Origin: Lagopus muta | Lineage: Eukaryota; Chordata; Aves; Galliformes; Phasianidae | Direction: 5' to 3' | NCBI RefSeq assembly: GCF_023343835.1 | Contig: NC_064437.1 | Span: 21,055,001 to 21,119,000 of the forward strand | Length of the DNA: 64,000 nt | Part shown: piece after piece, positions 262-64,000 of the stretch | Layout of the letters: every line of letters begins with the position of its first letter | How positions within the stretch are numbered: the first letter of the stretch is position 1 | Position numbers and translations under genes: made by a program | The notes under the pieces: model-generated | The model's database searches: none | Told to the model about the DNA's origin: nothing | Seen by the model: the letters and a program-made list of their open reading frames with translations, nothing else

Positions 262-346
262 CTGTGGCTGAAATGGCGGAGCTGTGGGCCCCTGCATGCC
301 TTGTGACTGCTCATCCATTCTATCAGGCAAAAGTGTCCTTTAAGGC
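262..346 (-). CDS. NEK7: NEK7 exon 2, first coding exon (serine/threonine kinase, N-terminus)
   Basis: NEK7 is a small NIMA-related serine/threonine kinase. It acts at spindle poles and the centrosome and is also an essential partner of the NLRP3 inflammasome (family knowledge). Read on the minus strand, the exon follows a TCTTTTCAG acceptor (exon starts at 346), has 28 nt of 5' UTR, and an ATG at 318-316 with a strong context (A at -3, G at +4). The coding part, 262-318, gives MDEQSQGMQGPTAPPFQPQ, 19 residues. This agrees with the mammalian NEK7 N-terminal extension except for a few changes around residues 12-15. It ends CAG|GTATC, leaving phase 0. Only this disordered extension is present; the kinase domain is outside the window. 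The related NEK6 has a different N-terminus, so the assignment to NEK7 is firm. CDS proper is 262-318. Confidence 0.95.
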
Positions 347-9955: not shown

Positions 9956-11319
9956 AACGCAGAACTAATGTGAAGGCAAGATCCTATACTAAGTCTATTA
10001 AATATGCATTTTTCACATGCATGGGCAAACTGCCTCCCCAGAGCATCTCCATGAACAAATATAGCAGGCTAACTACATTCAGCTCAACTTTGGCACAATA
10101 AAAGGAAAATACAGGTGTACCTCAGGCTCTGACAATTCAGAGGATACCACATGTTATAGCAAATCCATCGACTGACTTCATGTACTCTTTTTTGACTGTC
10201 TTAGGATAAATCTTTCACATGAGTTTCTCATATACTCATATGTCTTCAGCTAAACAACTCTAAAATTGTACTTATTCTTCTTTCTTTGGAAGAAATTTCC
10301 ACTACAGTCATGAGACTCCACTTGCCTATTTCTTGTAGACCCTGGAAGGCACAACAGTAAGTCAATCAAAAACAGATTTTCAGTGGACTAAAGTTCCTTT
10401 TTTTTTTTATTTTACATCCATTTTTTTTATTTTAGTTTTTATGTTGAATACAAGGTCTCTACCATAAAAGCAGTATCTCTATCCTTCCACTCAAAGTCTC
10501 TGAGCATGCTTTGAAAATCTATCTACCCAAACATCAGATACTTCTAAATACAACATCCTGAATACTTTGAAATTAAAGAACATGCAAGTGTGCTTTTGTG
10601 TTATTTCCTCCCAGTATCAAATATATATCACTGCAGGGCTTTAAATTCTTACTTTAAAGCTGCTTGATGATACTTGCAAACTTCTCTCTTTCCATAACAA
10701 AAAAAACAATTTACCCTTCTTTTCTCCTGTTTTCCAGAGCACATGAACTAATCAGAGCATTCTACTGCATTTCATCCCTCTCGCAGCAGCACAAGTCAGA
10801 AAGTTTAAATGCAGACACCTCTATAGTACTGCAACTCTAAGCTGTTTCCAAAGCAGCAACGAATGGAACATGTTTTAAAATTTCAGTCTTACAATTTAGT
10901 GGAGTTGCAAATATCCACATGACATCTACCTGACTGACGTGCCTACCTTATGGAGCAATACACTGTCCACTGTAACTTCAGACTAGTCACATAACTACAT
11001 ATAGGAAAGACATCCAGTCAATGAAATTACTACGCGTGCATGACCTGAAAAATAACGCTACCATTCAATCTGAGAAAACAGTGCTGTGACAGTTATGTCG
11101 TGCAAGGCAGAATTGATGCCTCTCATGAAACTCGAAGCAAAAGCTCAAATTCCAAAGAAGAGCATCTATTTTGAAGGGACAGTCTGTACAGACACAAGCC
11201 AAAACTCGGAACAGGTGCACGCAGAACCAAAATCGGGTACTGTGCAAGGTAAACACGAAGCCACGGGGAAAAGATATTTACCGATCTAATTTTTATTATT
11301 ATTTTATACTGACAGAGGA

Positions 11320-12510
11320 TGCCCCGCTCCCAGCGCTTCTCAGCAGGCCTGCTTCTCCTGGTCTTACACAGCCACGCCGCCCACGCCCGGCAGCCTCAGC
11401 ACAGCGCGGCCAACCCAAGGCGGAGCCGGCAGGCCGAGAGCAGCGTCGCACCTGCGCCGGACACGGCCCGCAACCAGGCGAGAGGAGCCAGGCGAGAGGG
11501 GCCGGGCACCCGCAAGGAAACGCCGAGAGACACCACGAGCGGCTGCCCCTTCCGCGACAATACCCGAGGAGCCCAGCCCGAGGCGCACCGCCTGGGGCCG
11601 CGCCGCCCCCGCCTCTCCCCGGCTCCCAAGTGACCCGGGAGCCGCTGCGGGACCTCGGCCCACCACGACCCCAGGGAGCCGCTTCCTCAAGAGCCGCCGC
11701 GACGCCCCTCGCCGCCCCGCAGGCGCCGACTGAGCGAAGGCGGCCCCTGGCCGGTTACTGCCCACCACCATCCCGCCCCCGCCCGCAGAAAGTTTCTCTC
11801 CCCGGCCCACACCGCTCCCTCTCCTTACGACGGAGGGAGCGGCAGCCGCGCCGCCCAACGGCGCCGCGAGAACGAGCCCCACCGACCAATACGAGGCGGC
11901 GAGAGGCGGGACCCCCGCGGTCCGCCCGCGCGACTCAGCGGGGGGAGCGCCTCCAGGCGGGCGGGCTCAGCCCCGCGCCTGCCGCCCCGGCCCCGCGGCA
12001 CCCCGCTCACCGGGAACCCGCCGCTGCCTTCGCCTGCTCCGGGCGCGGGGCGGGCCTCACCTCTTCCGGCTTCTCGGCAGCCGGAGCCAGGCCGCGTCTC
12101 GCGGCAGGCGCCTAGCGGGGCTGCTGGCCGCCGGCTCGGACGCCCGCTGCGGCCCCAACCTCCTCTCCGCCCCCCGCCGCTCCTGCCGGGCCCGTAAACA
12201 TCCCGGCATCCCCGAGGATGGAGGCGGGGCGGCCGCCGGGCTCCGCCTCGCCCCACCGCCCCCCTGCCGCCCGTGGCCGTGGGGCGCCCGGCGGCGGCTC
12301 GGCGAGGCGGGTTGCTGTTTCCGTCGGGCGCCTCACGGCCGGCCGGGCGGCTCTGCACCGCCGGCACTGGTGCGGTGCGGCTCGGCTCGGCCCGGCTCAG
12401 CGGTAACGGGCTCGCGAAGCTCGGAGCGCTCGGACCTCGGTGGGCAGCGGCGCTAAAGGCACGGTGCTCGCCCGGCGAAGCCGCGCAGCAGAACAGCATC
12501 AGTAGGCGCG
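11320..12510 (-). promoter_or_regulatory. NEK7: CpG-island promoter of NEK7
   Basis: About 1.2 kb is strikingly GC-rich with dense, undepleted CpG and several GC boxes (GGGCGG/CCGCCC), in an otherwise AT-rich, CpG-poor window. A CCAAT motif is seen near 11,885. No TATA box is evident, which fits a housekeeping promoter. It lies upstream of the NEK7 coding exon at the distance expected for a long first intron. The island also opens long frames on both strands (for example 11,171-12,115 plus and 11,825-12,499 minus). These are composition artefacts: they encode Arg/Pro/Ala/Gly-rich strings without domains. Confidence 0.85.
12061..12340 (-). other. NEK7: Probable NEK7 exon 1 (5' UTR)
   Basis: On the minus strand the best donor in the CpG island is GAAGAG|GTGAGG, putting the last exon base at 12,061. 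A weaker alternative is CCCG|GTGAGC near 12,010. The upstream boundary (transcription start) is not determinable by eye; about 12,200-12,340 is a guess from island density. NEK7 exon 1 is non-coding in mammals, consistent with the first ATG being in the exon at 262-346. Confidence is limited because several GT-containing donors occur in this GC-rich DNA. Confidence 0.45.
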
Positions 12511-15500
12511 CAGGCCTGTCTAATCAGGGCGCTGGTTCTGCGATCAGCCAGCAGCACCAGCCTGAAGCCTCGGCCCAGGCTGCTTTGGCGCACAATGGAA
12601 AGAGCACAAATTATACCGCACGATTTCTCAAGGAAGGTTACACGGCACTGTGATCAAATAGCTTCTTCCTAAGGTGAAGAAACCGTATGTAAAGGACAAC
12701 TGTTTTTGTTTAAGTTGTACTGTATCGAAGTCTCTTGCAGAACAAGTAAGGTATGGACCAGTGTGTCTGGAAGAAGTCCATTCACCTCTCTGCAAAAGTA
12801 CAGCCTGCTTGTGAGGTGGACCTCAGCCCTGAGACATCTGTGGGGTGTGCGGGGATAGAAACTCTCACAGTTAAAAAATACATTTTTCTTTACTGTCTCA
12901 TTTCTCTGATGTTAATACATTTATTAACGATTCTGCACATTTCCTGTTTATCATAGCAGTATGTCATCTGATGCTTTATCCACGTGGGTTTTTTGTTTTG
13001 TTTGAGCAAGATGTTATTTTTATATCCACTGCACTTATATTTTTAATCCTCAATTTTCTCCATTTGTTATGTCACTGTAGCCACTGTTACTGCATTTCTA
13101 CACTGTTCAGCTGTCTGAACCCAAACACTGTTTTAGCCTGATACTGCCAACTGTTGCAGCTTCTTCTCTTTCCTGTATTCTAGCCTCATTTGGTTAAAAA
13201 ATGTCTGCTTCCATTTTCTTTTTGGTGCTTTGAGAACCCAGAGGCTTAAAGCTGAATATGCTGCTTCAGTGAACCAAACATCATCATGGACATCAAAAAG
13301 AGCCTTACAAAAAAAAAAAAAAAAAAAAGGGGGGGGGGGGGAGGGGCTTTAATAAAATACTACACTTATTTTAAATAAAATACAAATTTAAAATTTGCAG
13401 GGTGACAAGCCTGCCATGTGCTATCAAAGTCAGTCTTCAGGCCTGCGCTGTACAAAGCTTTACTTGTAAAGGGATGTTTTCCTTTGCTTTTCAGTGCACA
13501 TTTTCACTTTAATAAACCCATCTAACATTCCTGGTAATGGAACCTTCACATCGTACAGAGTCAGAAAGGCAGAAAAGGCTCTGGAAGATTGACTAGCCTA
13601 AGGGGTTGTTAAGGAGCAGGCTCATCTCTGGTAAGTGATTCTCTTGGAGGCTGCAGGGGACACTGACTAACCAGCTAGCAAAGGCTTAGAGAAAACAGAT
13701 GAAGACATTGGAATTAGGGATCTGAGAGGAAGAACACAGCTCTTAGGTTAAGCCTTACCAGCTGCTGGAGGTGAGGCAAATGCTCCACACCTGGAATCAA
13801 GCAGGCCAGAGGCAGAAGGAAGGAGTTTAGCATACAACTCCCTATACTGGAGCTAGTTGATAAGTTTGGTCCCTGCAGTTTGCCTTAGTTAATGTTTGTG
13901 GAGATAAAGGGCTCTCATAGGACTGTTATTTTATTGACTGTTAGTAGCATCTTGTTCTACCTATTTTTTAATTATCCTTAGGTTAAAATTGCAAGTTAAG
14001 TGCACTGGTTTTGCATACTGAGAAAAAAGATCACTAAATAAGGGAATTGTAGAGATGGCAGAGAAAGATCCTGCGAATTACAGAAAGATCATAAATAAGC
14101 ATATTTTCCCTAGGTATCATACTAGGTGTGAGTTCTACAATATACATGGGAGAGTTATAGATGCCCCTCACTAATTCTAATGTGGGAGTTAATTTTGATC
14201 TTCCTTAACAGTCTGCAAGTAATGATATTGTAGCAATGCACATTCATAATTTACTGTTGAATTCGGTAGAGAAATATGTAACAACGTTGAACAGTTGGTA
14301 ACTGCAGATTCTCATTTACAGATGCTTCCTAAGCTCTACTGGCAGATGTCACTGTCACTGATGCTGCGCTTCACCAGCCTCAGTATTGTTAATTAGTTAA
14401 TCAACTTAAGAAAGCTCCATGAGTCTTTTTCTGGTCACTGAAATCTATTGGTATATATAAAAACTATAAACATGGCTACCATTCAGGGTATTATCTAAAA
14501 TACCACATGATCATAAAAGGTATTATTTGCAATGGTGGTGGTGTGTGTTATTATCATTGAACCAGAAACGGTGGTCTTTGCCAGGATTTTGTTACCAGAC
14601 TCAAAGGCAGTTAGAGACTTTTAGGCAATGACATTTAAGTCAAGCAAGGACTCAAAAGTTTAAACCTACTCTCCAGGTGATTCCTTATGTGCTTCCTGCT
14701 ACTCCTATTATCTAGGACTCCATGCATCTAGCTTCCTGAGATGTTCATTAACAGCATAAACTTTAGACTCAAGAAAAATACAGATTTCAAAACTTTAACA
14801 ATTTCAGGCAAAAGAGCTCACTAGGGCAGAGAAGCTGGGAATAGATGTCGTTGGGGTCACAGATGTAAGAGGTAACATAACAGCTCAATGGTTAACAATT
14901 CTTCAGGTTCTTCAAATCAATAAACCAGAGGAAATTAATCAAAAGGAGCAACTGTTCACTATAAAACCTTGAAGCCTGAATTTTCAGACTTAAAGTTTCC
15001 CTCTGTCCTGGTTCTTTGTTACTAATGGTAAAAAAGCTCATGTATCTACCTTTTTTGTGGCAGGGAAATTAGAAAGGTGTGATGGCCAGAGTGAAGAGAT
15101 ATCAGTTCTCTCTGGGCTTGATAAATATTGCCATAGGATATTACGCCAGTTTTAAATTCAATTCATTAGAGAAGCTCAGAGACCTCTTGCTTTGAATGAA
15201 GTAGGGCAGCAGGCTTCTGTATCAAAGAAGCATTCTAGAATTTTGATCACAATACATTCAAATTCAACACCTTTGTAGAAGCGAAAGGGAACAAATAAAT
15301 TTACCGTAGGAACAGTGAACTTTGAAAAGATGGCTGCAAGATGTCAAGTAAGCTTGTCAGAAGCAAATTAAAAGTAAGAGCCAAAGGGGAAAGTGACCTG
15401 CGTTAGGATTGCTGAGCAAGTGTCTATCAACTGTCGAAGCTTCTGGAAGGAATGGCTGAAGACCAGTGGAGGTCTGCAGGAGAGTAACGGATAGTAGTAG

Positions 15501-32600: not shown

Positions 32601-35600
32601 AAGTTTTAGGAGGAACACCTACCAGTTTCAGAAGCATTAACCACCATGAGATTCTGCTTGAATAAAGATCAGCAAATGCATTTTAGTTACGGGTAAGTTA
32701 CAGAAGTGTACTGGAGTGGAAGCAGGATGAGACAAGTATTGTGTTCACATCTTCTAAGATACAAGAAAAAACAAACACTTAGTACCCTTCCACATAAGAT
32801 AATCATTCTCACTGACTGTCTCTCAGCTTCCTTAGTCTCATGACATTATATTGGTGTTTGAGGACCCACGACTGATTATTGTTCAGTCCTACAATTTGAG
32901 AGCATTCATAACGAGCCCCAAAGCCCAACACTTAACATAGACCTATTTTCAGTGGAAGCACAGATGTGACAACTAAATGTGCTCTAAGACTTTTATTACA
33001 GGTTTTAATTTCTAATACTCTTCATGAGCTCATTTGCAGGTCTAGACCTATAATGCTTTGTTAGCTTGAACAGCTGTGTTTTTATGACTGGACTAGATCT
33101 GAATGAAAGTTTAAAGCTTGTGTGTAGTTATTGTATATGTCCAATTAATCTTCACTCTGCTAGAAAACGCCCCCCAACCCCTCTTTTGCTACCTCACAGT
33201 TCCCATGCTTGCTTTGGACTGCAGACCTGGCTCACACTTCAAGTTAACAAGGTTGAGGTACTGCACTAATAATCCCTAACATGTTTAAACAGATGTTTAT
33301 AGCTGCTGGGGAGCATAAGCTCTTGTTTTAATTCATGAAGTTACTTGTTAAACTTGAGTAAGATATGTGGTTTCTGGTGATAAAGTATGATATTTGCTAC
33401 ATTTGATTGCTGGTATAAAAATGCCAACACCTGAAATGTCTCAAACTATTCAAAATGAATGACTGGCACACATAAATAGGATTAAAACATTCATAGGAAT
33501 ACAGCAGAATCTTGTTCATGTTACATGTCCAAAAAAAGAGATCAGGACTTTGTGCCAGGTACTATACATGTTAGAACAAGGCATTTTCCCCAGCAATGGG
33601 CTAATAGTGCACAGCCAAAGACTCCTTGCATTAACAGGCAATAACTGAAACCTGGGCAGTCTACTTGTCTCATGCCACAGCTGATTGCAGACAGTACAGA
33701 TCTGGGTGTATTCCAGGCCATTTCATCTTTCTGACACTCTGCCACACTTGGAACAGTATTCCCATTGTTCTTGAGAGCACAGTTTATGTCAATAGACTTT
33801 AGGTTTTAGATTTGTATCTTCGCTGCCCAATGCATACTTATATTGATATTCAAAGGTTGCATGCTTGAAGCAGACCACTATCTGCTGATCAATCACAGCA
33901 CAGTTGCCATAGTTGACATAGGGCAGCAGACTAGCACATATGCATTTCCCCATCAAATGATTTCTGTAAGATCACATCAGTACTCTTGAAATCTCATTAC
34001 AAGTATTTGAGATACATATCAAATCAGAGCAAAGCATCAGAAAGGAACGTATACCAAAGATAGTAAGCATGTAACAATTTTCTGATAATTTGTCAGGGTA
34101 GAGATATGAAAAAAATCCAACACTGGATTTGTAAAACCCGTATGAAGTTGTTTATTCAAAAAAGACCAATAAAAGAGTTCATTAACTCATTTGATTCATC
34201 AAATTGCTCTGCAGATGGCAATAACATTTATTTTCTATTTAAAGAGTGTCTCGCCTCATCATAATACTGCACGCTCCAACTTAACCAGAAACTTGGCAAG
34301 GAGAAAATGCTGTACTAGCACCAAGAAATCCCATATGAAATCCTGTCTCCCATCTTTCTTGCTTTTGCTATGCCAGAAATATTTTTAAAAGACCACAAAG
34401 TAGACTTGTCATATTTTACTATGAAACATTCACTCACTTTGGACACATGTGCCTGGAGACTACAGCAGCTGGCTCAGCCCAAGCAGCAGAACTTAGAGCT
34501 GCAGCAGTGGTTGCAGCTCTGCCCACCAGCAGTACTGGCAGGTGGGATGTTTGCAGTACGTGTGTTCCTGCAGTGCCACAGGAACTCAGAAATGTGTTCT
34601 ACACCTCTGGATACAACTGCTTCTGAAGGATGTGATGGCCAGTGGACAGCAGACCCAGGGGACATCAAGGAGCTGTGGATGTGCAAACAGCCCAAAAGAA
34701 AGATGAACTGCCTCAGCGCAAAGACGAGGCTGCCCCTTCCTGGAAGCTCCTCTGAGCAGAACTGCAGGCAACCCTGAACCATGCGCAGGTAACACTTAGG
34801 CTCTACAGGTTTGCTTCTTTTGCTTTCCAGATGCCTTCCCAGGGGTGAGCGGTTAGCAAAGGCAGGCTTTTTGTATGTGCTTACATGCTGTCCCTGTGGC
34901 AGCGAATTCAGAACAATCATCCTTCCACAGTGTTTTAGCAAATCTGCAACTCCAGCTCTATTGCCATTGCTTCGAGCCAAAAAAGGAACTACCTTAACTT
35001 TTTGTGGAGCTCTCACTTCCCATAAACAGCCACTACACAAACATTTTCACAGTAAAATGTAATGGCCATTCAACATGCCTTCCCAAGATTCAAAATACAT
35101 GCTGCTGCTGGGAACAAACCCCCTTGTGGAACAGAGCGCAGGGGCTGAGAGGTTTGAAAAGAGACAAACATGCTCAGAATGGAGTTCAGTACATTTTCCC
35201 CTTCACAAGGAAGGATCCTGAGGATAGCAGCCCAGATAATACACCATTTTTATAACGTACTGAAGCCTTACTTAACATGAGCACTGGGTGCCAGCACTCA
35301 GCAGCTCTCCTTGACCTGGCTTCTCTTCTAATTCAGTCGCTAAACAAATGCAAAATGACAATTCTTAACACAAAACTGAGATTACAGATGAAATTACTCC
35401 TTTGTTTAAGGTCTAGATGATAATAACTCTACCTTGTTTAAAATATCTTGAGAGATCATAGAAGCTTACGCCTGAGGCAGCAAAGAATAACAAAACTAAA
35501 TACGATTCCTTCCTGTAAGGGTACTGGTGTAGTGCACCAGCAATGCCTCCCTGGGACTGTTTGTCATCAAAAATACATGCAAGAGCAAGTCCCCTGCTTG

Positions 35601-41055: not shown

Positions 41056-44000
41056 GCCTTAAAAGAACAAACAAATGAGAAGAAATAGATTTTGAAGTTC
41101 ATCATGTGTATCCATTGGTGAGGATTTGGCCCACTGCTTTACCACCTATTTTACCATCTATTTGCTTCTGGCAATTGTATACGTCAGTGACTAAAGCATA
41201 TTTCCAGACTATTTATATGATGTGTATGTCTTTGTAATGTTATAATATGACTCAAAAATATGTGATAAATTGAAGGATTGGGCTCTCCCCTCTTCCCTCC
41301 CCCACCTTGTCTGATTCTTGTCGTCCCGGTCGTTATCTCCTTATTTCTGAGATTTTTCTCTCTCCACCGAGCTCTTGGAAATTTCATAGCTGCTGGATAG
41401 ATGCTATTGCCATATGACATGTTCAACCTTTAAAACAAATAATTTACTTTGAAAGTTGAACACTGTTAGAGTGATTAATTAGAGTGTTTACCACCAAGTT
41501 CTTCAAGCCTAAAATTGCTGTCATACTCTAAAACATACAAGTGTAATAAAATTATGCTTATTTGCAAGGTCTCTAAAATGGACGGTATGGTTTCTCTGGC
41601 TTCTCATTCCTGTAGAAGCCTGTATGGATGGGTAGTTTGCAAAATAGCACTCTCTGCTTTTATCTGACAGCTGCACTTGAAACAAGTAACAGACATCCAC
41701 TGCATTGTTACCTGCCACTCCTATTTGTGTTTCTGTGGACAAGAATATCAGATCGGCAAACTCTGGTGGCCAAGCCACACAGGCAGAAAAGAAGCAAGCC
41801 AGACAGGGTAAGAAGTGTTCCCCAAGCCCCAGAGCAGGGAAGTGGCACCAAAGCAGCAGCCCTTCTGTGCCAAGACAGCTTGAGTCCATGTGGAGGGGGA
41901 CACCAGATGAAAGGAAAACAGCATTCAAACAGCTGTTTCCTCCTGGCTGCGACAGTGCTACCCAAAGCAATATAAACAGCTTTAGTTTACCAGTTTGAAA
42001 AGGGCTGAAAAAATGTAGAACGTTGTGGCTCCACCAGATGTGCTGCAGTGAAAAGATGCATTCAGTCAGATCTAGTCTTGGGGAGATCATTTCCTCTGCT
42101 GGAGCCCCAAAGCCCCTCCGTCACCTATCCATATGAGCAGAGCTCTTCTGCAGCACCAGAACGAGTAGACCAATAATTCCAAAACTAGATCATAAGAATG
42201 AGCCATGCCAGAGCACTCTTCTCTCTCAAGGATCCTTTTTCCTTTAGGAATTTTATTACCATTTTTTCTGTTAATCAAGTTAGACACCACCAGCCCTCTC
42301 CTAACCAATTTCAAGCATCATACAAAAAAAGAATGTTTCGCTGCCTCAAGTATTTTCATTACAGAAGAGATAGAGAGAAAAAAAGCAATGCCTTAGAAAT
42401 TGCAACCAAGACCGGGCTTTTTAATCTCATTTTTTTCTTTAAGATCAAGTCACAACTCTTGCCTCTCAACTGAAAAGGCCTTTCTGTTAACAGTGTTTTG
42501 TGATTGAATTTGATAGTAAGTTTTTAAGTCATTTAACTTGGCACCAGGCGTGGCTCTGAGCCTTAGAAACTAGTAGGCAGCTAACATCTACTGTTGGTGC
42601 TGTGACAATTTGAGATAAAAGCAGGAGAGACTTGCAGTTTTCCGAGCTAGAACAGCTATGTTCCACTGTCAAAATAAAATAAAATTACAAAGTAAAATAA
42701 TTGGTGTGATACATATTCTTGCAGCATATTTAAATAGCTACTAAGTACTTTTTAGCAGTTTGTACTTTATGTAATATCTAGAGTAGCAAAACAATGTTCT
42801 AGCTGAACATTGTTCCATATGATTTGATTTCTGCCTCCTGGTAAAGCTTCTGGATAGGTTTGGGGTTCAAAATCTCTTCTGAAATGAAGAAAGCAGTCAT
42901 TGCCTCCAACTATAAACGCTCTATTACTTCTATGGTATTTAGGACACTGAAAGAAAAGAGCCCATAGAAAAGGGCCAGGGTTTTTTAATGTCAGTGCAAG
43001 AGAATGTCATCATTTGTTTCACTTCAAATCTTTGAAAAATGAAGAATAGCCAACATTATCTCAATTATATATACCTTTAAAAAAAAAAAGCAAAATTATT
43101 CTGTAATTTCTCTAAAATTATGTAAATATTGTGCAAGAATCACAAGTAAACTAACATATAAACAGCAGAGCAAGTTTCTATCTAACTTTGGCTTACTAAT
43201 GATATTTACTTTGAGAAGATCCAACAAGGGCTAGTTTTGTGTCATAAGTATGCAGCCAATAAGCATCTGGGCAGGCAGCTAAACCAGGCGTGATAAGATT
43301 TCAGGCCAGAAAAATGCAAAATCCAACATGTAACTTCACAAACTCACCAGTTAATTTCCCTAAAAATTAAATGCTGTTGATAATCACAAAAAGTGATTTA
43401 CAACCAATTTCTGATCCATCTGTTGCACTGAACTGTAATCGCCTAAACAAAGGTGGATGCTGCTTTTTTTCTGACTAGAACTAGCATCTCGAAATGTCAC
43501 TGTAATTCTTGTCACAGTCATCTTTCATTTAGCATCAGATGAACTACTAAAGTCTCCCAGGCAATAGTTTAGAACTGCCTACAGTATTCTTCTTTGATTT
43601 TGTCTCTTTTACTACTGCTTAAAAAGACTCTTGGTTTTGTTTCTCCTGACCTCACACAAAACTTTTGTAGTATTTTTTACAAGTTCAATATCAAAGTCTT
43701 TCTTCAGGAAAAAATGAAGGAGGCTGAATTTGGACCTTCACATTACCAAAGAAACAACAACATAGTAGCAAGACACAGGCACTGTCAAAGCATTTAAAGT
43801 TGGAATTCTTCAGAGACCTTTGTAAGAGCGAGAACAGAAAAATAACTTGATGCTACTGCACCCTGTGGGACTTCATTTTTGTTTTAAACCAGAAAACATT
43901 GTTCCTGAAGAAACAGCATATTGATTTGTATAATCTCTGAGTTATCAATCACTCTTTTATCAATTGAAAGTGAATGGTATACTTTTGGTGTCAGGGAAGC

Positions 44001-46020: not shown

Positions 46021-46440
46021 ATTAGATGTTAGGATAAGAAATCTGAGCATACTTCTCAAATCAAACATCCATATGCCAAGATGAAGATGGTAACATCCTG
46101 TTAAATCTGAACCAGAAATTGGCAAGCATACTGGTTTCAAAGAGGTACTGCTTAATCAACAGCTTAGACTACAGAAATGAGAGATCTTCAGTAAAAACTG
46201 AAAGCTTATCAAGTTTGCATAAAGTTGTCTAGAAGCAGATCAAAGAGGGAGCACTAGCTCTAGAAAGGTTCACAGGCAGAAACTAAGTCCCTACAGAAAT
46301 GTGCCCAACAAAGATATTAATGAATAAGTCTTCCTTTGGGAAATTATAAATATCTGTTTGCCTATTGGTTTAGGCAGCATAAACATCTGGAATCATATTT
46401 CCTTAATTAGCAAGTATGTCACTGCCACATTTTGCTAGCA

Positions 46441-46652
46441 GTCACCTGTCTGTGATGTCACTGTGGTGCAGCACAGTCACTATAGTGATGTTTCTGAATG
46501 TCCCAGTCCTCTCTTGGCTCCCCACACCACGGGAGCCACGTGCTTCATCCTGCTGATGGCAGGACAAACCTCATAGTCTGGAGAAACACAGACAGAAATT
46601 CCTGAGTGAAGAATTAATCATTAAATTAATCATTAAATAATTAAACATTAAA
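46441..46652 (+). promoter_or_regulatory. Putative promoter/5' UTR of the HSFY-like gene
   Basis: Upstream of the ATG at 46,653 are a CRE-like TGATGTCA (46,453-46,460, one base from TGACGTCA), a perfect 12-bp palindrome TCACTATAGTGA (46,477-46,488), an E-box CACGTG (46,537-46,542) and an AT-rich 12-bp tandem repeat of the form AATTAATCATTA (46,612-46,635) next to the start. No clear TATA box or CpG island is visible. CRE-like sites are common in promoters active in the testis, which would fit the family, but this is inference. Confidence 0.35.
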
Positions 46653-47165
46653 ATGGAGATATCTTTATCAGAAACACCAAGTGTTTCTGTTTTGGACATT
46701 GACTCGGCAGCCTCAGCTTTTTCTGTCCTTCAAGTACATGGTAAAGCAGATGCTCAGGATGCTGCCTTAGGATCTATAAAAGCAGAAAACACTTCTCAAC
46801 GTTCATGTGAGGAAGCTTCCTCAAAAAAACTACCTCTTAATCTCTCTGAAAAGTGCTCTGGCAAAGCCAATGACTTTGCATCCTTCTCCTTTCTGAAAAA
46901 ACTCTGGGAAATTGTTGAAAGCAAGTACTTTCAGTCCATTTCGTGGGCTGATGATGGAAACTCTATAGTGATTGAGGAAACACTCTTCAAAAGGGAAGTG
47001 CTGGCAAGGAGAGGATGTCTGCAAATTTTCAGCATTGGCAGCATGAAAACTTTCATTCGTCAGCTTCATCTTCACGGATTCTTCATTATGGAAGGAGATT
47101 TGCCAAGATCTGCTTCACGTGCTAAATTCCAAGCAGACGAAGCAGCAGTTTCCACTTCTAGCAAG
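46653..47165 (+). CDS. HSFY/HSFX-like heat-shock factor family protein, exon 1
   Basis: Encodes residues 1-171 of a predicted 291-residue protein. The start ATG has a good context (A at -3, G at +4). Residues 1-75 are acidic/serine-rich and unlike anything I know. Residues about 78-150 form the first part of an HSF-type winged-helix DNA-binding domain: FLKKLWEIVES (helix 1), QSISWADDGNSIVIEE (the conserved Trp strand), and MKTFIRQLHLHGF, matching the HSF recognition helix signature SFVRQLNLYGF. The nearest family in memory is HSFY/HSFX (mammalian sex-linked germ-cell HSFs) rather than the stress factors HSF1-4. The exon ends AAG|GTACAT at 47,165 in phase 0, at the same point as in mammalian HSFY (after a Ser-Lys). 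It is not disrupted, and its role is presumably as a nuclear DNA-binding regulator. Confidence 0.88.
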
Positions 47166-48092
47166 GTACATAGTCCACCTAGGGTCCCCCTACCCGTGAA
47201 ATACTCTTGGGACTAGTGGGATTGGGGATTGGTGGTCACTCAGTATAAATAAGATGCCTGAAAGTTGGTGGTATTTGGGTTTCTAAACCAACTGTTATGC
47301 TTTTGAAAATATTACATTTCTCTGCTGCTCTCAAATGGCAAGAGTTTAAGCAAGGGTAGTTACTACAATGGCTGCTCTGAAAGTAATGTCTCCCACTGAA
47401 TTATGTTGCCCCGTAGTGTCAGAAGTGGGTTTACATGGTATGGCAATAGAGGATGAACCTCCCACCCTGATATTCCATTAAGCTTTCTTGTTATGTGACA
47501 CATAACAGTAGACGGGCAGTCTGACAAAATGGCATCTGACATGGACATGTATACGAAGCAATAGTGTGGCATTGAGTTCTTAAAGGCTGAAAAAATGGTT
47601 CCCCTTGACATTCATGGACACTTGCTCAACTTTTATGGAGACCAAACGCTGGATGTCAGCATAGCGTGTTGGTGGATGGTGTGTTTCAGCAGTGGCAACA
47701 GAGACATGAATGAAGGCCTGGTTCTGGACAGCTGTGCAGATCTCCCCAAGCGTGGCACTCAGGCTCTTGTTCATCTCAGGAAAAAAATGCACCAATAATG
47801 GTGGTGGCTGTGTTGAAAGAGCGTTTTGTAGCTGAGATTTATTCTATCAAATAGTTTTATTGTGCTTTATATCTGTTGTGGTTTCCAATGAAATAAACAG
47901 GAGGCATTACTTTCAGAGACCTTGTACTTAACAGAACTGTACCATAACATTTTATTCGCAGGTATTCATGTCTAAAATGCCCCTGAGAGTCCTCTCTGCT
48001 TGTTTCTGAGGTTCTAATTACTAGTTATTGTGTCTTTGTCTTTTCCAACCTTGTAATGGTGGTGAGTAAATTTTCTCCTTTGCATTTTGTAG
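47166..48092 (+). other. Intron of the HSFY-like gene
   Basis: A 927-bp GT-AG intron. The donor is AAG|GTACAT and the acceptor TGCATTTTGTAG|TTTCTC. Both sides are phase 0, and joining them gives an uninterrupted HSFY-like sequence. About 60% of the intron is the mariner-derived element at 47,370-47,922. Confidence 0.85.
47370..47922 (+). mobile_element. Non-autonomous mariner element (Galluhop/Mariner1_GG-like)
   Basis: Terminal inverted repeats are GGCTGCTCTGAAAGTAATG at the left and CATTACTTTCAGAGACC at the right, flanking about 550 bp. The interior retains a decayed N-terminal mariner transposase segment (for example YGDQTLDVS and VCFSSGNRDMN in the plus frame near 47,630-47,710), but no full transposase. 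It is too short to encode one, so it was mobilised in trans. The terminus and the GGAGGCATTACTTTC end match the chicken Galluhop family as I recall it, which supports a galliform source. Confidence 0.85.
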
Positions 48093-48455
48093 TTTCTCTA
48101 CTATTACAACCCCTATTTCAAGAGAGATTATCCCCATCTGCTAAGAAGATTCAAGCGTAGTGCTGGTATAAAAAAGAGAGCATCAGGTGCATTCTTGATG
48201 AACCTGGATTTGAAGGAGGGCCACCTGAGCAGAAGCCCTCTGAAGAAAAAAGCAGGCCCTGCTGCGTCAGTGGGCACTGAGCTCCCTGGTAGCATCCACA
48301 ATGCTGTTCTTGCTTCATCTGCTACTTCTCTGAATCACATGGAGTCTTCTATACCAAACAGCCCTTTTCTACCAGGGCTGGGACCGGATACTGGAGCTGC
48401 AGGTGATGGGGTTGGACGTCAACACAATTTATTCTTCAGAAAGTATAGATGCTAA
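48093..48455 (+). CDS. HSFY/HSFX-like heat-shock factor family protein, exon 2
   Basis: Encodes residues 172-291. It opens with FLYYYNPYFKRDYPHLLRRF, which closely parallels the HSFY motif of the form FYYNPNFKRGYPQLL that completes the DNA-binding domain. A basic stretch at residues 189-200 (RRFKRSAGIKKR) and LKKK at 221-224 could serve as nuclear localisation signals. The remaining tail is Ser/Gly/Pro-rich with no recognisable domain. There is no heptad-repeat oligomerisation region (HR-A/B) like that of HSF1-4. The total of 291 residues is shorter than human HSFY (about 400, from memory), the difference being in the C-terminal tail. The frame is open to TAA at 48,453-48,455. A degenerating retrogene is unlikely, because the conserved intron is present. 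Confidence 0.87.
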   Translation, partial: FLYYYNPYFKRDYPHLLRRFKRSAGIKKRASGAFLMNLDLKEGHLSRSPLKKKAGPAASVGTELPGSIHNAVLASSATSLNHMESSIPNSPFLPGLGPDTGAAGDGVGRQHNLFFRKYRC

Positions 48456-48482: not shown

Positions 48483-48488
48483 AATAAA
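48483..48488 (+). terminator. Polyadenylation signal AATAAA of the HSFY-like gene
   Basis: A canonical AATAAA starts 28 nt after the stop codon. It is followed by a T-rich stretch and TTGTCCTGTCCTGTTACTT, a plausible downstream U/GU element. It implies a very short 3' UTR. Confidence 0.55.
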
Positions 48489-63045: not shown

Positions 63046-64000
63046 CTGCAAACCAATCCCAATGGATTTCTTTACCGATGCTTGTTTGTTTGTTTGATTG
63101 TTTGTATGTCTTTGTTCTTGCTTTTACGCCATCTTTTTGATGTTTGATTTGCGTGGCAAGTTGCCCACATCACTCTACAGCCTGGCTTGCTACTGGTGGT
63201 ACTGGCTCACAGGCAGGCCCTGCACAAGGCTCGGGGCCCAGTGCCAAGTCCTGGGAAATCTGCTCGCTCACTCGCCCAACAGAGGCAATGTTTTGCATGG
63301 CCACTGGTGCTCGTTTCGCCTGGGGAGTTTTAGGGTCGAGACTCAAAGATGAAGGCAAAGGGTGAACGAGCAGATTTTGGCTAAGGCTTAAAGTTTATCT
63401 TAATCATTTTAAAAGACTGACAAGGAAGGAGGGGAAATTACACTGTCCCTGTCATGCAGCTTGTTGATATCGGTTACCTAGTCCTTCTCTTTGGCAGGGT
63501 TCACTGAAAGTGTTTTAGGTGATTTGGAATACAGACAAGCAATCACTGCTAATAGATTCTCTTTGTCCCTAGATTAGTGCCCTTCTCTGCACACAGCTTA
63601 CAACACATACCTCACTTTAACTTCTCTGAGCTAGCACGCACCATTACGAAGATTTTGTTAATGTCATTTGCTGAGCTCTTTCACAGGGAAGTAACTTTGC
63701 TATGGAGGCCCTTGGTAGTAAAAGGGAACAGGCTGATCCTGGAAGATCGTACTGGTCAAAGTTTGCCTCCTGTATATTGAGGATCTGCTCACTGAGGGGC
63801 CACGTTAACTGCCTCTCAAGAGCCCAAGGGCTTCACCCAGTATGTGTAAAATGAGTAGATTTGCTACCTCTGTCCTTAATAAGGTCAGCACATAGAGACT
63901 ACAGATCCCAGGATGTCCCCCAGGTCATAGACTCTGGAGACAATTTCCTCATCTTGAGGATGCAACTACTTATAAATCACATTTCAGTATTTGGCTGCCT
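63046..64000 (-). other. LHX9: LHX9 intron preceding the terminal exon, partial
   Basis: Intron sequence splitting the homeodomain, running off the right edge. It has a T-rich (TTTG)n tract at 63,082-63,105 and otherwise unremarkable sequence; no exon was found up to 64,000. Confidence 0.8.

Follow-up and report, generated by a model that had tools for sequence, protein, structure and literature searches.

An intact HSFX/HSFY-branch heat shock factor gene between NEK7 and LHX9 in Lagopus muta belongs to a multicopy family located off the presumed Z chromosome

Mammalian HSFY and HSFX are the closest described relatives of the gene analysed here. HSFY is Y-linked, has two exons and contains an HSF domain with a long wing region; its intron splits the domain before an NPxFKR motif, and the present gene shares both wing and intron. 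HSFX has the same type of domain but differs in being X-linked. HSFY is amplified in cattle and pig, as is the family described below: published reports give about 70 copies in cattle with testis-only expression among six tissues (PMC3049798), and about 50 copies of each of two variants in pig, one of them likely nonfunctional (PMC4460688). In earlier reports, HSFX/HSFY have been dated to the therian ancestor (PMC3477149), high-confidence HSFX/HSFY orthologues are known in mammals only (PMC12366260), and HSFY appears to be identifiable in birds (PMC4460688). A raptor study lists an annotated bird HSFY-like gene with a signal of positive selection (dN/dS 9.73, branch-site test), a possible relative of the present gene (PMC13254548). 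Among the matches listed from the open-licence literature, none reports an HSFX/HSFY array in a bird, and the passages cited here do not describe the present family. A second point of comparison is HSF5, which is reported to lack HR domains and yet to be able to oligomerise (PMC12366260); it has no heptad repeats, assembles in vitro into dimers/trimers as well as larger oligomers, and has a single GAA as its predicted ChIP-seq motif (PMC11059408).

Here, we describe an HSF gene in a 64-kb window (C8:21055001-21119000) of a 1.03-Gb, 165-contig bird assembly. It is a genuine gene and belongs to the HSFX/HSFY branch. Judging from its sequence, we consider it probable that it is a functional autosomal factor that arose within a multicopy family by duplication at the DNA level. 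It lies on the plus strand between two minus-strand neighbours, which we take to be NEK7 and LHX9 from matches to presumed human sequences; the sequence-only reading had placed it in this interval on the opposite strand, and both the position and the orientation hold. The features are as follows (window coordinates).

262 to 318, minus strand: first coding exon of NEK7, left neighbour (query of presumed human sequence).
46345 to 46350, plus strand: TATAAA, ~300 nt 5' of the ATG in CpG-poor DNA (CpG o/e 0.11), with five ATGs before the start codon.
46653 to 47165, plus strand: coding exon 1, 171 codons, open frame; N-terminal tail and the HSF domain from helix 1 through the recognition helix; PF00447 at 1.4e-14 for the exon alone.
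46887 to 47165, plus strand: portion of the HSF DNA-binding domain encoded by exon 1 (residues 79-171); the best PDB matches begin at residue 79, Pfam from 80.
47166 to 48092, plus strand: intron, phase 0, GT-AG (GTACAT...TGTAG), 927 bp; its site recurs in each of the 22 modelled paralogues.
48093 to 48455, plus strand: coding exon 2, 120 codons and stop; end of the HSF domain (FLYYYNPYFKRDYPHLLRRFKR), then a C-terminal tail ending GDGVGRQHNLFFRKYRC.
48483 to 48488, plus strand: AATAAA polyadenylation signal, 28 nt 3' of the stop.
62791 to 63051, minus strand: last coding exon of LHX9, right neighbour (query of presumed human sequence; weak Pfam match to the end of a homeodomain, 0.013).

Several lines of evidence support the gene model. 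First, the spliced frame encodes 291 amino acids and is stop-free, and the joined protein matches PF00447 at 2.9e-19 (69.9 bits, cut-off 22) over residues 80-193. Second, exon 1 alone reaches 54.8 bits and exon 2 alone has no match; thus, the higher score of the joined protein supports the splice junction. Third, in 2000 dinucleotide shuffles, exon 1 was open in one, exon 2 in one and both in none, with a mean of 13.9 stops. Because five stop-to-stop frames in the window are longer than that of exon 1, which has 191 codons, the weight rests on the Pfam match rather than on frame length; together, the match and the shuffles rule out an orphan or chance frame. A processed retrocopy is likewise ruled out by the presence of an intron whose position is common with the paralogues. 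The splice sites, the start context and the polyadenylation signal all look intact. Altogether, the intact two-exon gene with canonical splice sites, a 291-codon open frame and a short 3' end that had been read from the letters is borne out.

The position of the intron also connects the gene to HSFY. In the cattle study (PMC3049798), one frame of the HSFY primer at the exon-2 border reads NPNFKRG, the counterpart of the NPYFKRD that begins five residues into the second exon of the window gene, and an exon-1 primer encodes ASLPVFL. The primer frames were picked by eye, and the primer at the exon-1 border showed nothing recognisable on translation. Because the bovine primers encode NPNFKRG and ASLPVFL, the HSFY and window introns lie in the same stretch of the domain, before NPxFKR, as had been proposed.

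Pairwise identity and phylogeny agree with this assignment. The window domain is 46% identical to HSFY1 (over 135 columns), 37% to HSFX1, 35% to HSF5, 33% to HSF2, 28% to HSF1 and 30% to HSF4; the human HSFY1, HSFX1, HSF1 and HSF4 sequences used here and in the trees are presumed to be correct. In a tree of seven HSF rows, the window gene, HSFY and HSFX join at 98/98. A larger tree had 17 rows, of which 14 are distinct; besides five references it took in 12 of the 23 bird models, among them three of the 11 C8 units and two of the five C16 units. There, the split holding HSFY/HSFX with the bird copies has weak support (79/94), with no firm order among HSFY, HSFX and two bird clades. The proposal of an HSFY/HSFX-like gene is thus supported. 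It is highly improbable that the gene instead belongs to another class, i.e., HSF5 or the classical HSF1-4. The top PDB match is indeed HSF5 (1.3e-08), although no chain named HSFX or HSFY was shown in that search, in which 17 of the 19 distinct sequences matched are named heat shock factors, the two exceptions being a "putative transcription factor" and PtmU3, the latter matched weakly. Against this, identity to HSFY exceeds that to HSF5 and to HSF1/2/4 (partly on presumed sequences), a separate HSF5-like exon is present at C23:9.27 Mb, and both trees set the window gene apart from HSF5 and the classical HSFs; on these grounds, we reject an HSF5 or classical identity. HSF5 nevertheless resembles the gene in lacking HR domains and in keeping the helix Arg, and differs by an insertion between helix 2 and the recognition helix, as given in two reports (PMC12366260, PMC11059408). 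Structure prediction for exon 1 residues 73-171 was poor (mean pLDDT 53). In one scan of prokaryote genome contigs, 56 pattern matches yielded no confirmed relative.

Downstream of residue 193 the protein has no Pfam match, and a crude heptad count detected no HR-A/B coiled coil in the C-terminal tail, the eight best windows lying in the wing region and the N-terminus; the absence of HR-A/B noted earlier is thus supported at this resolution. The tail is shorter than that of the presumed human HSFY1 sequence, and its ending is like the GDGVGRRYNLRPRKRC of the paralogues in a tandem array on the same contig.

The window gene is one of many. PF00447 has 38 matches in the whole assembly, part of which are probably classical HSFs. 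Searching with the window protein gave at least 72 matches at E up to 0.01, the weakest of which (E near 0.001-0.002) may be chance; by hand, the 72 were sorted into about 48 family loci plus HSF5. An array of 14 units (13 exon 1s, 14 exon 2s) occupies 27.53-28.37 Mb of C8, the contig that also carries the window gene, and copies are found on eight further contigs: five at 10.07-10.66 Mb on C16, thirteen on C1 (C1:78.6 among them), two on C2, single copies on C3, C11 and C23 (7.47 Mb), five on C10, and a group on C31. A query of presumed DMRT1 sequence placed DMRT1 on C59, which we presume to be the Z. None of the 72 matches lies on C59; thus, the sex-chromosome linkage seen in mammals was not found on this presumed Z, and in this the family differs from mammalian HSFY.

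We modelled 22 paralogues besides the window gene. In every one, a GT donor stands 90 or 91 codons beyond the point where the domain match begins, and a CAG acceptor precedes LLCYY or LLLYS, an agreement that is partly built in because the donor was sought only in codons 88-94 and exon 2 by motif. Outside the models are 10 of the 32 listed family places: C8:27548713 and C8:28360588, at the edges of the stretch taken; C1:88.9, C1:86.2, C2:96.6 and four C10 loci, which have no match to the exon-2 motif; and C1:88.3, with a stopped exon-1 frame and an exon-2 match that was set aside. All 11 modelled C8 units are open, with a full exon 2 of 121-125 codons, and are near-identical (exon 1 99.2-100% to the first unit). 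In the C16 units, exon 1 is open in 5/5; exon 2 has 85 codons in three, whereas the remaining two reach a stop at 52 and 26. Open frames are also present at C11:33.4 and C1:96.1, where exon 2 is 225 and 229 codons long. The frame of C1:78.6 stops 37 codons into exon 2 and that of C1:69.1 after 30. C1:67.6 and C1:95.8 contain stops as well, C23:7.47 has a frameshift and C3:17.28 is broken.

In the larger tree, the window gene, the C16 copies, the C8 array and C1:78.6 form a sub-clade (100/99), and C1:96.1, 95.8, 67.6, 69.1 and C11 form a second bird clade (N-clade; 96/96). The intron and flanks bear on how the family spread. The intron contains the following element.

47375 to 47918, no strand assigned: 544-bp element with 19-nt terminal inverted repeats (95%); two frames tried, no Pfam match.

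The element may be mariner-like; it had no library match. Element-like sequence is present at the same intron spot in C1:78.6 and, in shortened form, in the C8 array; from this shared place, the element predates part of the family history. The C16 introns are 211-213 bp and are without it. C16 would accordingly be either the first to split off or a lineage that lost the element; the tree instead puts the window gene first (92/88 for the rest, below the mark for firm support), and the two signals conflict. Homology between the window and C16 continues beyond the exons both upstream and downstream, whereas with C8 and C1:78.6 it is less extensive; some of the upstream matches occur at unrelated loci too and are perhaps repeats. 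Because intron and flanks were copied too, duplication occurred at the DNA level.

The sequence-only reading had offered two origins for the gene, a duplicate specific to birds or sauropsids, or the ancestral autosomal position of the mammalian X/Y lineage. That it is a duplicate is well supported by the hand-sorted set of related loci in the bird's own genome; for the second, with copies on eight further contigs, C16 among them, the data neither support nor contradict it. We regard it as very unlikely that the LHX9-NEK7 interval is the site from which the mammalian X/Y pair derives. This origin is favoured by the early branching of the window gene and by its being the only copy in the window, where the one other match of the protein has an E of 0.45. 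The distribution of the intron element argues against it and fits the branching order only if C16 lost the element. Moreover, sub-clade copies share C16 with FMR1, IDS and MTM1 (17.5-18.4 Mb), which are X-linked in human, and N-clade copies lie elsewhere. Local X synteny of the C16 copies is ruled out, the three genes being 7-8 Mb away, and no gene near these copies was recognised by eye in the frames of two 10-kb stretches. An X-homologous ancestral site would fit the C16 linkage, although a family with this many dispersed loci could have one on C16 by chance; because the linkage is at the chromosome level only, this point decides nothing about the ancestral site.

Duplication within a multicopy family remains our preferred origin, and selection was assessed against members of that family. 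NG86 dN/dS values, which being pairwise are averages over two lineages, were overall 0.44 (0.31-0.62) against C16, 0.52 (0.36-0.75) against C1:78.6, a partner that is probably broken, and 0.56 (0.41-0.76) against the C8 array. In the domain, the corresponding values were 0.28 (0.16-0.46), 0.34 (0.20-0.57) and 0.42 (0.25-0.69), and outside it 0.70 (0.46-1.14), 0.99 (0.56-1.95) and 0.71 (0.48-1.08). Thus, in pairwise comparison, the HSF domain is under purifying selection and the tails are near neutral. Because dS between the window gene and the three partners is 0.56-0.66, their split is old. For the window's own branch, three-way estimates of dS are 0.16, 0.21 and 0.36, and dN/dS by trio is 0.55 (0.36-0.90), 0.59 (0.29-2.14) and 0.86 (-1.95 to 5.05); purifying selection on this branch alone is likely, not proven.

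These values bear on the possibility that the gene is a decaying duplicate whose frame is still open by luck, in a family that is a source of dispersed pseudogenes. Because many sister copies are broken, a recent loss of function is possible; the near-neutral tails, with intervals extending past 1, and the unclear branch value in two of the three trios point the same way. On the other hand, when the frame was evolved neutrally by substitutions only, frameshifts aside, it stayed stop-free in just 232, 107, 33 and 7 of 3000 runs at 0.1, 0.135, 0.2 and 0.3 changes per site, and the intact-looking signals and a domain dN/dS far under 1 also argue against decay. We therefore consider decay unlikely and a functional gene the better account.

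Where the domain departs from other HSFs, it does so in and around the recognition helix.

47043 to 47087, plus strand: recognition helix and turn MKTFIRQLHLHGFFI, residues 131-145; departs at 4 of 27 otherwise invariant positions, with R136 kept.

The winged helix is predicted to place its recognition helix into the major groove of DNA, and in HSFX this helix has the canonical RQLNLYGFRK. In an alignment with six other HSFs (four with presumed sequences), 27 columns are invariant among those six, and the four departures of the window gene all lie within residues 133-145, which hold 10 of the 27; the chance of this under random placement is 0.012, for a region picked post hoc. When the six were left out in turn, each showed 0-2 departures, HSFY1 having two, including an R>S in the same turn. 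Residue 133 varies. H139, H141 and I145 are present in 4/4 sub-clade lineages (one unit each of C8 and C16) and are shared by every modelled unit of C8 (11) and C16 (five). Three N-clade copies have N, Y and K at these positions. The sub-clade thus differs from mammalian HSFY by N>H, Y>H and K>I. The window gene lacks the helix Asn and Tyr that the six other aligned HSFs all have; these residues are a variable trait rather than a family-defining one. Y>H is not unique to the sub-clade because the broken N-clade copy C1:67.6 reads RQLNLHGFTR, in which H replaces Y and R replaces K.

In a study of HSF1, Arg71 makes the main contact to the G in GAA, Asn74 has an auxiliary role in contacting the base that precedes GAA, and Arg117 makes another contact (PMC8379338). 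These correspond to R136, H139 and, by count, R193 of the window gene. Both arginines, including the GAA-reading one of the helix, are kept and the Asn74 site is now His, so that core reading would be kept and one auxiliary reading changed. We suggest that R136 would read the G of GAA and that, with His in place of the Asn and the nearby Tyr and Lys also changed, the protein would recognise GAA sites that are single or short, its preference for flanking bases being altered; such a shift is expected because the Arg reading is kept but Asn, Tyr and Lys are replaced. That the helix change alters DNA-binding specificity is our inference from the residues. Lacking HR-A/B, the protein would not be expected to form a classical trimer, and another mode of oligomerisation may remain, as in HSF5. 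By analogy with HSFY and HSF5, germ cells would be the most likely site of action.

The gene is unusual in its setting, an amplified family off the presumed Z that includes a clade with a changed, retained DNA-reading helix. We tentatively propose, as a possibility short of our main reading, that HSFX/HSFY-like genes underwent autosomal tandem amplification in this bird lineage in parallel to Y-linked HSFY in cattle and pig, and that one sub-clade fixed the H/H/I helix under constraint, giving a germline factor with its own specificity that was possibly shaped by intragenomic conflict. The genome shows an HSFX/HSFY family off the presumed Z with intact, selected members as well as tandem arrays. 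If the proposal is true, HSFX/HSFY amplification is more than a by-product of the Y chromosome, and the role of the family can be tested without confounding by Y-linkage. The changed-helix sub-clade offers a concrete test of binding specificity.

Further observations concern the copies elsewhere and the sequence around the gene. Units of the C8 array are in tandem, about 3.8-4.1 kb apart within each cluster, and the frame 5' of their start codon reads through 14-codon repeats (RFLLLVGGQALLAV-like) whose number changes from one unit to the next; this points to a minisatellite in the 5' region. At 0.94-1.30 Mb of C31, a 3.3-Mb contig, there are five exon-2 matches; two of these loci were read and have no matching exon 1, and exon 2 was possibly captured there into another repeated unit. 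The five C10 copies, at 23.6-48.6 Mb, are decayed, each with stops in the matched stretch. In the window, two minus-strand open frames at 41524-42120 (199 codons) and 34477-35046 (190 codons) have no Pfam match and are probably chance or repeat remnants. A CpG island at 11001-13000 (CpG o/e 0.96-0.98, GC 0.62-0.65) is probably the NEK7 promoter with a noncoding first exon. To regard the TATAAA at 46345 as the promoter of the window gene is a guess. At 46453, 200 nt 5' of the start codon, TGATGTCA is a CRE with one mismatch, which is suggestive of CREM-type germ-cell control but may be chance.
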